Assembly (NCBI RefSeq): GCF_001541315.1
Contig: NZ_LMVK01000004.1
Location: forward strand, 62,001-126,000
Reading direction: 5' to 3'
Source of the DNA: Agrobacterium tumefaciens str. B6
Lineage (GTDB): Bacteria > Pseudomonadota > Alphaproteobacteria > Rhizobiales > Rhizobiaceae
DNA: 64,000 nt
Position 1 is the stretch's first letter, and the number at the start of each line of letters is the position of its first letter. The notes beneath the pieces were generated by a model. That model ran no database searches. It saw only the letters and a program-made list of their open reading frames with translations, and was not told the origin of the DNA. Below are positions 5,889 through 53,349 of this stretch, in pieces. Made by a program: the position numbers and the translations under genes.

Positions 5889-5965
<77 letters not shown>

Positions 5966-6580: not shown

Positions 6581-6657
6581 GGCCCCTTAGCTCAACTGGA
6601 TAGAGCAACTGCCTTCTAAGCAGTAGGTCGCAGGTTCGAGTCCTGCAGGGGTCGCCA
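6581..6657 (+). tRNA. tRNA-Arg(TCT)
   Basis: Cloverleaf on the plus strand. The acceptor GGCCCCT (6581-6587) pairs with AGGGGTC (6647-6653) with one G-T pair. The anticodon loop CTTCTAA has TCT at 6615-6617, the T loop is GTTCGAGTC, and CCA is encoded at 6655-6657. Length 77 nt. It decodes AGA and AGG. A short T run follows. Confidence 0.97.
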
Positions 6658-31566: not shown

Positions 31567-31992
31567 ATGGACAATATGACATCAACCATCAAGCCCGGCC
31601 TCGATTTTCCGGGCGTTGGTGTCGGCCTTGTCATATTGCGTAACGAGCGCGTACTTTTATGCCGGCGCCTGAAGGCGCCGGAAGCCGGATACTGGAGCAT
31701 TCCGGGCGGCAAGGTCGATCACCTTGAAACTTCCCTCGCCGCAGCACGCCGCGAGGCCGAAGAGGAAACCGGCCTTGAGATCGGCGACGTCGAATTTCTC
31801 TGTCATAGCGAATTTATCGATACGCAAGACCGTCACCACTGGGTTTCGCTGATCTTCGTCACCCGCGACGCGCAGGGTGAGCCGGCATTGACCGAACCAG
31901 ACAAACTTTCCGCCATCGGCTGGTTCGATCCGGGTGAACTTCCCGAACCCATCTCCGCCTTTGCCAGGGACGCCCTGGCCGCCCTGAAATAA
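31567..31992 (+). CDS. NUDIX hydrolase
   Basis: 141 residues (starts 31567 or 31576). It has a complete Nudix box within GGKVDHLETSLAAARREAEEETG: the G-x5-E-x7-R-E-x-x-E-E-x-x-G pattern binds the metal that hydrolyses the diphosphate. The flanking region resembles the ADP-ribose/dGTP-type NUDIX enzymes (VGVGLVILRNERVLLCRR). It is likely a pyrophosphatase that cleans or regulates nucleotide derivatives. A GGCCGC-ACAA-GCGGCC hairpin follows the stop, though without a T run. Confidence 0.92.
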   Translation: MDNMTSTIKPGLDFPGVGVGLVILRNERVLLCRRLKAPEAGYWSIPGGKVDHLETSLAAARREAEEETGLEIGDVEFLCHSEFIDTQDRHHWVSLIFVTRDAQGEPALTEPDKLSAIGWFDPGELPEPISAFARDALAALK

Positions 31993-32191
31993 GGCCGCAC
32001 AAGCGGCCAACCGGCCCCGCCTGCAGGCAACAAGGGCGTTCGACGGGCAATTTCACACAGTCATACGATCTATACGCCGGAGTTGGATTTACCCTCTCCG
32101 CGCTATATCTTTTCCAGAAATACAAAAATGAAAGAACGTCTTTGCGCCAGGCTTTCAGAATTCAATTTAAAATTGCTTAAATTAGCTTCAT

Positions 32192-32224
32192 GTAAAAAAC
32201 CGCCCCAGTTGCCTGAAGCGGTTT
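32192..32224 (-). terminator. intrinsic terminator of the minus-strand small RNA
   Basis: On the minus strand the AAACCGC / GCGGTTT stem (32218-32224 and 32197-32203) with a 14-base loop is followed by TTTTTT. The direction shows that it ends a leftward transcript that has no protein-coding ORF of its own. Confidence 0.75.
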
Positions 32225-32333
32225 ATACGTAATGAAAAAAATAGAATATAGAATGTAATATAGTCTGGCAGTGCTTATAATCGGAACACTTTCCGAGGCC
32301 TGTTACAGCCAATTTCAGTCGTCCCCTGAAACA
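32192..32333 (-). ncRNA. predicted small RNA gene, about 142 nt
   Basis: Read on the minus strand, a near-consensus promoter is followed by AT-rich DNA that ends in an intrinsic terminator, and there is no ORF in between. The 5' part has TTTCAG-GGGACGA-CTGAAA inside an outer CTGTT/AACAG pairing, then CGGAA-AGTG-TTCCG. A U-rich unstructured stretch (around 32230-32262, ending ...TATTTTTTTCATT) separates these hairpins from the terminator. That is the layout of an Hfq-type trans-acting sRNA. Targets cannot be read from the window. The neighbours, a NUDIX hydrolase and an ABC substrate-binding protein, are both on the plus strand. Confidence 0.7.
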
Positions 32334-32338
32334 GTTAC

Positions 32339-32367
32339 ATCTAAGCTAATCATTTACTTTCCGTCAA
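32339..32367 (-). promoter_or_regulatory. promoter of the predicted small RNA
   Basis: On the minus strand TTGACG (32362-32367) is followed after exactly 17 bases by TTAGAT (32339-32344). Both match the vegetative promoter of alphaproteobacteria well. The expected start of transcription is near 32332-32334. Confidence 0.7.
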
Positions 32368-32867
32368 GCAAATCTTCTCGCAAATGCGAAAAAAACATGG
32401 CGTAAAAGCGGTGAATAATTGGAAGGATTATATATTCGTCATATATATCAATAAATTATGCAATTGATAATAAAATGTGCATGTTTTTGTGCTGCACTCT
32501 GAAAAGCATAAACCTAGCTCAGTCTTTTCTAAACTGTGCTTATACGCGGCACATGTAATAGATTTATGAAGTAACGCAACTCACGGCAGGAACACGAAAT
32601 ACCTCCTCGTCCAGTCGGCGCAAAGGAGGAACAACTTCACCGCAAGAACAGCCGCGCCGTGAGACCGGTCGCGCGCAATTGCACCGAACGCAAACAATCA
32701 AAAGTTGTTGGACTGCTCCGCGCCCTCGAATCGGGCAACTTCCGATCAAAACCGCCGCCCTGCGCTTGGCGATATGCGATTAAGATGAAACCGCAGCGAT
32801 TTTTCCTTTGGAAAACCGGTTGTTGCCGATAAACATCAAGCCGGGACAACAGGATTTCTATCGCGTC
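32368..32867. other. intergenic region without a recognisable gene
   Basis: About 500 bases, AT-rich to about 32570 and GC-rich after that. I found no ORF with coding character. There is a hairpin with CCTCCT (32602-32607) and AGGAGG (32624-32629) that hides a Shine-Dalgarno-like core, but no start codon follows it at a usable distance. The last 60 bases lead into the substrate-binding-protein gene. Confidence 0.5.
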
Positions 32868-33947
32868 ATGCTTTCACTTCGCCTGCTAACGATCATCGCC
32901 GGTTTTGCCTTCGCGGGCTCAGCAAGCGCGGCATCGATTGGCATTGTTGCCCCGCAGAACGGTCCTTACGAGCTTCTGGGCCAGCAGATGCGGCAGGGGG
33001 CGAAGGCGGCGGCGGCCAAGCTCGGGCTTGATGTCGTGGAAATCCACGAGAGCTGCGAAGACGGCAGCGGCGGCGCGATTGCCGATGGCCTCGTGGCGGC
33101 CAAGGTCAGCGCCGCGATCGGGTTTTTATGCACGGAGACGCTTCAGGGCGTTCTGCCGCCATTGAAAGCGGCCGCCATTCCCGCGATCACACTTTCCAGC
33201 CGCGCGCCGATCCTGATGGAAGATGCGCTGAAATACGGCTGGCCGCTCTTCCGCCTCGCCCCATCAGACCGGGCCGAATCGGACAGGATCGCCGAAGTCA
33301 TCCTGCGCGACTGGAAGGGACACTCCATCGGACTTGTGGATGACGGCACGATCTATAGCCGCGAGCTGGTGGACCGCATCCGCTCGGCGCTCGAGGAAAA
33401 CGGCCTCAAACCCACCTTCACCGATACGATGCGGCCCAACCAGGAACAGCAGGTAGCGCTGGTGCGCCGGCTGGCGCGCACCGGCATCTCCCATGTCTTC
33501 GTGGGCGCAGAGCGCAACGACGTCGCGATCATCGCCCGGGATGCCGCATCCGAAAACCTTCCCTTGACCATCATGGGCGGCGACGCCATGAACGCCGCCA
33601 ACAACCCGGTTCCCCTGGTCGCGAATGTGCTGGCCGTCACGCGCCCGGCCTATGACGCCCTACCCTCCGCCCAAGCCATCGCCGGCGAATTGCGGGGCGC
33701 AGGCATCGAACCTGAGGGCTATATCCTGCCCGCTTATGCCGCGGCCGAACTCACCGCCGCCCTTGCAGAGGCAGTGCAGGCGCAGTCGAAACCCGGGCCG
33801 GAAATATTGGCTGGCGGCGCCGTCTTCAAAACCGTCATCGGCGATCTCGGCTTCAACCCGTCACACGACCTTTCCGACAATCCCTATCGCCTGCAGCGCT
33901 GGAACGGCCAGCGTTTCGAACCGGCGGACAAGGCGGAAAGACAATAG
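32868..33947 (+). CDS. ABC transporter periplasmic substrate-binding protein (Leu/Ile/Val-like family)
   Basis: 359 residues. The start at 32868 gives a classical signal peptide, MLSLRLLTIIAGFAFAGSASA. The mature part has the type I periplasmic-binding fold of branched-chain amino acid receptors: IGIVAPQNGPYELLGQQMRQGAKAA, DDGTIYSRELVDRIRS, and an end DNPYRLQRWNGQRFEP. No permease or ATPase gene adjoins it. The upstream in-frame ATG at 32808 would destroy the signal peptide. The ligand is unknown. Confidence 0.87.
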   Translation: MLSLRLLTIIAGFAFAGSASAASIGIVAPQNGPYELLGQQMRQGAKAAAAKLGLDVVEIHESCEDGSGGAIADGLVAAKVSAAIGFLCTETLQGVLPPLKAAAIPAITLSSRAPILMEDALKYGWPLFRLAPSDRAESDRIAEVILRDWKGHSIGLVDDGTIYSRELVDRIRSALEENGLKPTFTDTMRPNQEQQVALVRRLARTGISHVFVGAERNDVAIIARDAASENLPLTIMGGDAMNAANNPVPLVANVLAVTRPAYDALPSAQAIAGELRGAGIEPEGYILPAYAAAELTAALAEAVQAQSKPGPEILAGGAVFKTVIGDLGFNPSHDLSDNPYRLQRWNGQRFEPADKAERQ

Positions 33948-53213: not shown

Positions 53214-53276
53214 TCCATCGTGATCAGAACTCGGGCCCCTCTGGCGTGTTACCGGACAACACGTGATGTCGAGTTT

Positions 53277-53349
53277 CTTTAGGTTGGGGCCCACGCATAT
53301 TCTTCACGCACGTTCCCCATCCGCAAAGCCAACCTCGTCCGGCTAAAGG
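53277..53349 (+). promoter_or_regulatory. structured leader of terC, candidate terC RNA motif
   Basis: CTTTA-GGTTGG (53277-53287) can pair with CCAACC (53329-53334) and TAAAG (53344-53348). The inner GGGG...CCCC stem encloses a conserved-looking loop. The TAAAG strand is part of the terC ribosome site (AAAGG, 7 bases before the ATG), so this fold would hide the site. AGCC (53327-53330) and GGCT (53341-53344) offer a competing hairpin that frees it. A terC RNA motif upstream of TerC-family genes has been predicted in alphaproteobacteria; this is a candidate copy. Confidence 0.6.

Follow-up and report, generated by a model that had tools for sequence, protein, structure and literature searches.

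Does the gap between a NUDIX hydrolase gene and a periplasmic binding protein gene of Agrobacterium tumefaciens str. B6 harbor an unannotated small RNA (sRNA) gene that is equipped with a promoter and a terminator of its own, as the original prediction held, and does this RNA belong to a known family or to a new one? The question was addressed in a stretch of 64,000 nucleotides, hereafter the window, and in related genomes. The gap measures 875 bp in the window, and both its length and the nature of its neighbors (PF00293 and PF13458) are as predicted. Judged from sequence comparison, it most likely contains a non-coding sRNA gene that is strongly conserved in Agrobacterium. The fuller reading, which we consider probable, is that of a free-standing sRNA gene acting in trans through a fixed 5' end and Hfq, and representing the best-kept member of a small family.

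Parts of the predicted RNA gene

The features of the locus are as follows.

31579–31992, plus strand: NUDIX hydrolase (nudix) gene (PF00293), convergent with the sRNA; longest frame from 31555, start unsettled
32194–32332, minus strand: small RNA gene, approximately 139 nt with predicted ends, sequence GTTTCAGGGG...GCGGTTTTTT
32194–32224, minus strand: intrinsic terminator AAACCGCUUCAG-GCAA-CUGGGGCGGUUUUUU, 12-pair stem with covariation
32225–32266, minus strand: AU-rich linker with UUUUUUUCAU, mostly predicted unpaired (computed unpaired probabilities)
32267–32296, minus strand: middle domain, two mutually exclusive helices
32297–32310, minus strand: small helix GGCU/GGCC enclosing a variable loop
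32312–32332, minus strand: 5' hairpin GUUUCAG-GGGACGA-CUGAAAU, all 21 nt unchanged throughout the 24 rows of alignment A1
32339–32344, minus strand: -10 box TTAGAT (TTAAAT or TTCAAT in single relatives)
32362–32367, minus strand: -35 box TTGACG (CTTGAC with the preceding C), kept in 24 of 24 rows of A1
32379–32388, no strand: palindrome CGCATTTGCG, possibly bound by a regulator, its center approximately 51 bp upstream of the predicted start
32868–33947, plus strand: periplasmic binding protein gene (PF13458), divergent from the sRNA; longest frame from 32808

Direct reading of the minus strand gives the promoter that had been claimed, TTGACG and TTAGAT with a 17-bp spacer, and six bases between TTAGAT and the predicted start at 32332. 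The two hairpins UUUCAG/CUGAAA and CGGAA/UUCCG and the U-rich stretch are likewise read directly, with the qualification that the second hairpin competes with the helix AGUGUU/AAGCACU: within the middle domain, the local helix UCGGAA/UUCCGA (32296–32281) and the long-range helix GG-AGUGUU/AAGCACU-CC (32294–32267) exclude each other. The loop GGGACGA of the 5' hairpin (32325–32319) is predicted to be unpaired. The presence of an intrinsic terminator with six U is confirmed, the tail being formed by a run of six T (32199–32194) in the window and by fewer in some relatives (CTTTAT in G013). Folding of the segment 32331–32186 yields -40.4 kcal/mol, the mean for shuffled sequences being -28.3 (z -3.6, 1 of 200 shuffles as good). 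A consensus scanner lists neither the promoter nor the terminator of the sRNA, which we attribute to its rules: they demand an A at position 2, which TTAGAT does not have, and the 12-pair stem of the terminator takes up the run of T. The case against a chance arrangement therefore rests on conservation.

In the mechanism that we propose, RNA polymerase with the housekeeping sigma factor would start at approximately 32332 on the minus strand and be released by the terminator at 32194; the product would be approximately 139 nt long and untranslated. Its fixed 5' end GUUUCAGGGGACGA, part of which lies in the hairpin loop, would be the pairing site, the AU-rich linker (32225–32266), whose sequence suggests a candidate Hfq site, would be offered to Hfq together with the U-tailed terminator, and the sRNA would regulate RNAs in trans. 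We infer transcription and, from the class of RNA, Hfq binding and pairing by the 5' end, and would likewise have to infer the identity of any target.

The sRNA is aimed at the 3' end of the nudix gene and away from the binding protein gene, so that no gene lies downstream of it on the same strand. This bears on the idea that a downstream gene has its 5' leader or a riboswitch here, since a structured AU-rich RNA before a terminator could be an attenuator; the next gene, however, is nudix on the opposite strand, as it also is in those relatives where RNA and nudix are both present, and no Rfam riboswitch matches, which makes such a leader barely credible.

The remainder of the gap shows features of its own. 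Two patches of the window (32440–32500 and 32540–32580) reach identities of approximately 0.65–0.75 in an 18-locus alignment, their flanks being at approximately 0.35–0.5; dyads resembling TGTGCA...TGCAC occur in them, and they may serve to control either the binding protein gene or a start of the sRNA lying farther upstream. The distance from nudix to the binding protein gene is 2169 bp in G005 (L075:2850–4680), where it includes a frame with a helix-turn-helix of the phage-CI type (L075:4013–4543), 2155 bp in L028 and 1264 bp in L009 and L029; these sizes and the phage-CI-type frame indicate that this side of the sRNA takes up inserts. The palindrome upstream of the promoter keeps its outline in every one of the 24 rows of A1, although its middle bases change. 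Allowing at most one mismatch, it occurs at eight places of its own genome compared with three for the reversed pattern, without a clear regulon; a motif scan, made with control by VtlR/LsrB in mind, did not find it near the abcR genes, and control by VtlR is still conceivable.

Conservation at the home locus

The mean pairwise identity among 18 Agrobacterium loci is 0.904 for the sRNA (139 positions) and 0.902 for the promoter (63 positions), whereas the intergenic flanks have 0.542 and 0.503 and the 3' coding end of nudix has 0.793. With the whole gap of these 18 loci aligned, identity rises from approximately 0.4–0.55 to approximately 0.9 over 32160–32395 and then falls. The 18 were taken from 24 loci, leaving aside four near-duplicates (L010, L011, L013, L022), one at a contig edge (L018) and one that is not syntenic (L024). 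The first 25 nt of the sRNA are invariant in all 24 rows of A1. Promoter, RNA body and terminator are thus conserved as sequence in the relatives, which supports the predicted gene as a whole, and the promoter–terminator pair, whose conservation in related genomes the original prediction had left to be checked, is conserved there.

Searches with blastn recover the locus in 24 of 39 genomes of the genus and in none of 16 genomes from other families of the order; model R2, built from the 12 sequences of alignment A3, recovers it in 25 of the 39. Exact matches of the first 25 nt among named genomes comprise 13 stretches, all assigned to Agrobacterium or Rhizobium (nepotum, rhizogenes, sp. RM). 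Genome G005 is taken to be A. fabrum C58, since its RF00519 match (2163297–2163376) fits the published place of AbcR1 (2163256–2163370); its sRNA copy lies at 1818348–1818211 on the minus strand of the circular chromosome.

The compensatory changes that, in both hairpins, would have supported the original prediction were found in part. CGGAA/UUCCG shows such a change at one pair in 1 of 20 sequences, and 120 of 500 shuffles do as well; UUUCAG/CUGAAA never varies in the 20 sequences and so offers no covariation evidence for its pairing. The terminator helix does covary, as does a single outer pair of the helix formed by RNA nt 23–36. Both of the exclusive middle helices are kept, the local one in 98 of 100 cells and the long-range one in 99.4% of its helix cells.

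In the 15 blastn-negative genomes nudix and the binding protein gene are adjacent, with a spacing of 127–153 bp in 13 genomes, 291 bp in G022 and 861 bp in G021. The last of these holds a diverged copy at the same place and in the same orientation, with TTGACA, the start GTTTTAGGGGA and a terminator; it scores 28.1 bits (E 6.5e-5 over 60 kb) with model R1, which was built without G021. A tree of the helicase and nudix genes unites the 23 blastn-positive rows (99/95), with G021 nested in the other group of 15; these counts predate the discovery of its diverged copy, so that G021 was scored there as negative. Given this nested position, the sRNA may have been lost in most of that group or gained separately. 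The G013 copy is on the side of the binding protein gene, separated from that gene by a flavin reductase gene; GH108 and phage-primase genes are found on its other side, and helicase and nudix are on a different contig. Having no TTTT after the hairpin, this copy fails the terminator rule.

The absence of an open reading frame, a further part of the original prediction, holds in that the list of frames of the window includes none of at least 40 aa on the minus strand over the locus. A shorter product or a dual-function RNA could be sought in a TTG frame beginning at nt 21, which closes inside the RNA in 10 of 20 sequences including the window (29 codons in nine, 35 in one); two further sequences close it after 11 and 12 codons. 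Against this stands the breaking of the frame by length changes between species, which leave it open or differently closed in the others while the nucleotides remain approximately 90% identical. With the reading frame lost between sequences in this way, a small protein gene or dual-function RNA appears very improbable.

Further copies in Agrobacterium

Second matches of model R1 in G012, G003, G048 and G049 led to the recognition of a family. Those in G024, G046, G007, G048 (C1:2217458), G014, G001 and G004 were rejected as terminators behind other sequence, as judged from alignments of the best 6 of 13 and a further look at five of the seven. Since the window, G021 and the weak model matches have a common start, a pattern search was made with TTGAC, 29–32 bases and GTTTNAGGGGA. 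It yielded 33 places in 25 of the 39 genomes (reversed-pattern control, 4), of which 25 lie at or beside the home locus and eight elsewhere; in seven of these eight a strong terminator follows at approximately 100–115 nt. The eighth (G017 C2:2046156) has no terminator and resembles a gene start, and was discarded as a chance match.

Model R2 gives 37 matches at E ≤0.01 in the 39 genomes of the genus: 35 above 60 bits, one of 42.2 and one of 30.5. The 35 comprise 25 copies from the home locus or its immediate surroundings and ten from elsewhere, four of the latter in G048, two in G049 and one each in G012, G006, G003 and G017. Six of the ten extra copies entered the R2 build, and G049 C21 differs very little from one of the six, so that the scores of these seven do not count as independent; the copies of G006, G003 and G017, which are outside the alignment, score 69.6, 67.9 and 63.2 bits. 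These three begin with GUUUCAAGGGA or GUUUCAUGGGA, which leads to the family mark GUUUyAnGGGA, from which the G012 copy (GUUUAAGGGGA) departs at the fifth base. The family is marked by this 5' end, a variable middle, a U-rich linker and a GCCGC...GCGGC terminator. All ten extra copies have a hairpin of -14.6 kcal/mol or lower before TTTT at the expected distance; among 4000 random places of C58, 46 reach -12. Loci of like build are thereby established, at the sequence level, beyond the home locus. No Rfam family matches at the RNA in the seven extra-copy loci scanned.

Two single observations may be added. The extra copies of G017 and G003 (L226:5454–5569 and L168:954–1069) are nearly identical in sequence although they come from different species, so that a recent transfer is possible. 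The 42.2-bit match belongs to G049 C25 (L224:5852–5956, minus strand), starts with GCUUCAAGGGGCGAG and is perhaps a decayed copy.

As to the settings of the extra copies, one in G048 (L161) has an endolysin/chitinase-type gene on one side and, on the other, an integrase with a tRNA behind it, as in a prophage, and a second (L162) is 0.7 kb from a phage gp80/head-type gene; one in G049 (L164) is found 0.9 kb after repB and repC, with the repABC ctRNA and S-element in place. A pair of copies, in G048 and G049, lies in each case 0.35 kb past a tRNA, contig ends are 4.8 kb away from a further G048 copy and 26 kb away from the G017 copy, and no mobile gene was identified near the copies of G012, G006 and G003. 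These settings amount to a mobile context for approximately three of the ten. A blastn search of phage and plasmid records returned no match for the window copy or the repABC-side copy, and viral contigs contain no exact TTTCAGGGGACGACTGAAA; a viral contig with GTTTCAGGGGACGAGC was dropped, having just 20.9 bits with R2.

In 297 genomes of Rhizobiaceae from outside the genus, no R1 match exceeds 36.8 bits, and in the eight matches that were aligned (seven from outside the genus, one from G047) the score is carried by the terminator. With R2, the best match outside the genus among 394 Rhizobiaceae genomes (eight of the same genus) has 35.1 bits, in G391, and covers terminator and linker only; in a sample of 297 genomes of the order, which includes some Rhizobiaceae and the window's own genome, the best other match has 37.8 bits and does not have the GGGGA start. 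Among approximately 386 other Rhizobiaceae and 296 further genomes of the order, searched with the stricter filters applied to more than 40 genomes, at which weak matches are lost, no convincing family member was found, the weak matches examined being devoid of the 5' mark. The G391 element, from another genus of Rhizobiaceae, consists of a UUUCAUCAAG linker and a GCCGCUUCGG terminator directly behind nudix in the opposite orientation (L227:4541–4587), with no recognised 5' part. It might be a relic or a distant member and is not counted as a member.

This element, a terminator-like hairpin with linker behind nudix and no recognised 5' part, fits the alternative that the locus is regulatory DNA only, i.e., an operator and a bidirectional terminator for the convergent nudix gene with no RNA gene at all, as does the position of the window terminator behind that gene. 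Such an arrangement would not explain the joint conservation of promoter, first 25 nt and terminator, nor the like build at 10 places above 60 bits away from nudix, and we regard it as quite improbable.

Under the preferred reading of an sRNA gene, the family would have its 5' and 3' ends in common but not its middle, most copies residing at the home locus, a few elsewhere and some on mobile DNA. Going further, one may tentatively propose an undescribed family limited to Agrobacterium, with common 5' (GUUUyAnGGGA) and 3' ends and a changing middle, whose extra copies on prophages or plasmid-type replicons enter, mimic or compete with the host circuit; as a whole this is possible, although we would not expect it. 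If it were true, mobile elements would carry RNAs that act on the regulatory circuit of a host sRNA, and the prophage and repABC-side copies, with their similar 5' ends, offer a direct test of whether mobile RNAs speak to that circuit.

Pairing tests and comparison with known RNAs

Many rhizobial sRNAs have C/U-rich anti-Shine-Dalgarno loops, unlike the G-rich conserved 5' end of the window sRNA. Complements of its loop are not enriched in 1360 predicted start regions from 1.52 Mb of C58: TCGTCCCC was seen 0 times with 2.7 expected, and CCTGAAAC 8 times with 2.6 expected, yet 7 times on the other strand. With at most one mismatch, the own genome has three pairing sites CAGTCGTCCCCTG, one of which is the sRNA gene itself, versus four for the reversed control. 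Duplexes with the nudix and binding-protein mRNAs are no better than those of shuffles. Neither the seed counts nor the five duplex tests name a target.

The lack of enrichment at start codons would agree with an sRNA that does not pair with mRNA, i.e., a sponge for another sRNA or a protein-binding RNA, the invariant G-rich 5' end being the part that contacts the C-rich RNA or the protein. The invariance of the 5' hairpin, devoid of covariation, fits such a sequence-specific contact, and passages of PMC6234868 describe PmaR of C58 as acting by a C-rich loop. The AbcR RNAs were tried as partners and dropped, their duplex energies with the sRNA being ordinary: for AbcR1, AbcR2 and a third abcR-like RNA, 153, 137 and 64 of 300 shuffled sRNAs are as good, which speaks against a sponge for the AbcR RNAs. 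We consider this alternative unlikely and retain that of a trans-acting sRNA with a pairing 5' end.

None of the 4227 families of Rfam 15 reaches its gathering score at the sRNA, sub-threshold matches lying far under the cut-offs; of the two options, known family or new, the latter therefore fits as regards Rfam. Elsewhere in the window, Rfam terC RNA (RF03067) matches at 53223–53281 on the plus strand (49.2 bits), and two tRNA genes lie on opposite strands (5892–5965, minus; 6581–6654, plus). The AbcR/suhB family (RF00519) was rejected, having no match at the locus; the RF00519 matches of the genome lie elsewhere, and the AbcR genes of G000 and G005 are at other places.

A list of C58 ncRNAs is reportedly given by Wilms et al. 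2012. Large RNA-seq lists of C58 ncRNAs are described in parts of Lee et al. 2013 (PMC3738593) and Moller et al. 2014 (PMC4201532), and the C58 copy is possibly already among them. The main text of PMC3738593 contains no coordinate with 1818, and the table of Northern-tested RNAs in the same paper has no entry at the place of the C58 sRNA. The tag "C1_1818" was not found in the texts of Agrobacterium papers (one unrelated match), and the main texts of the literature searched do not print the 5' sequence of the window sRNA or of the extra copies. What emerges is a conserved sRNA gene absent from Rfam that belongs to a multi-locus family and keeps its place in a genus of plant-associated bacteria, among them the workhorse strain C58. 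As a single gene it is of an ordinary kind; the multi-locus family with mobile copies is the part worth following.

Three systems lend themselves to comparison. VrsA (L4), approximately 300 nt long, is encoded on the linear chromosome with atu4669 and atu4670 on either side, as passages of PMC7486931 state; like the window sRNA it is a C58 sRNA with its own promoter, VrsA being VtlR-linked, whereas the locus described here is on the circular chromosome. AbcR1 and AbcR2, sRNAs of Rhizobiales that act on ABC transporters and are linked to Hfq in C58 according to sections of PMC4201532, share with it the short intergenic gene, the intrinsic terminator and the genome, and differ in that the window sRNA has a G-rich 5' end and another genomic place. 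PmaR (formerly C10) is trans-encoded in C58 and, as presented in passages of PMC6234868, reported just from Agrobacterium and one Rhizobium strain, its C-rich loop carrying CCCA at nt 58–61. Identity with PmaR was rejected, the C58 copy of the window sRNA having GCAC at these positions; the likeness of the two lies in trans-encoding and a similarly narrow range.
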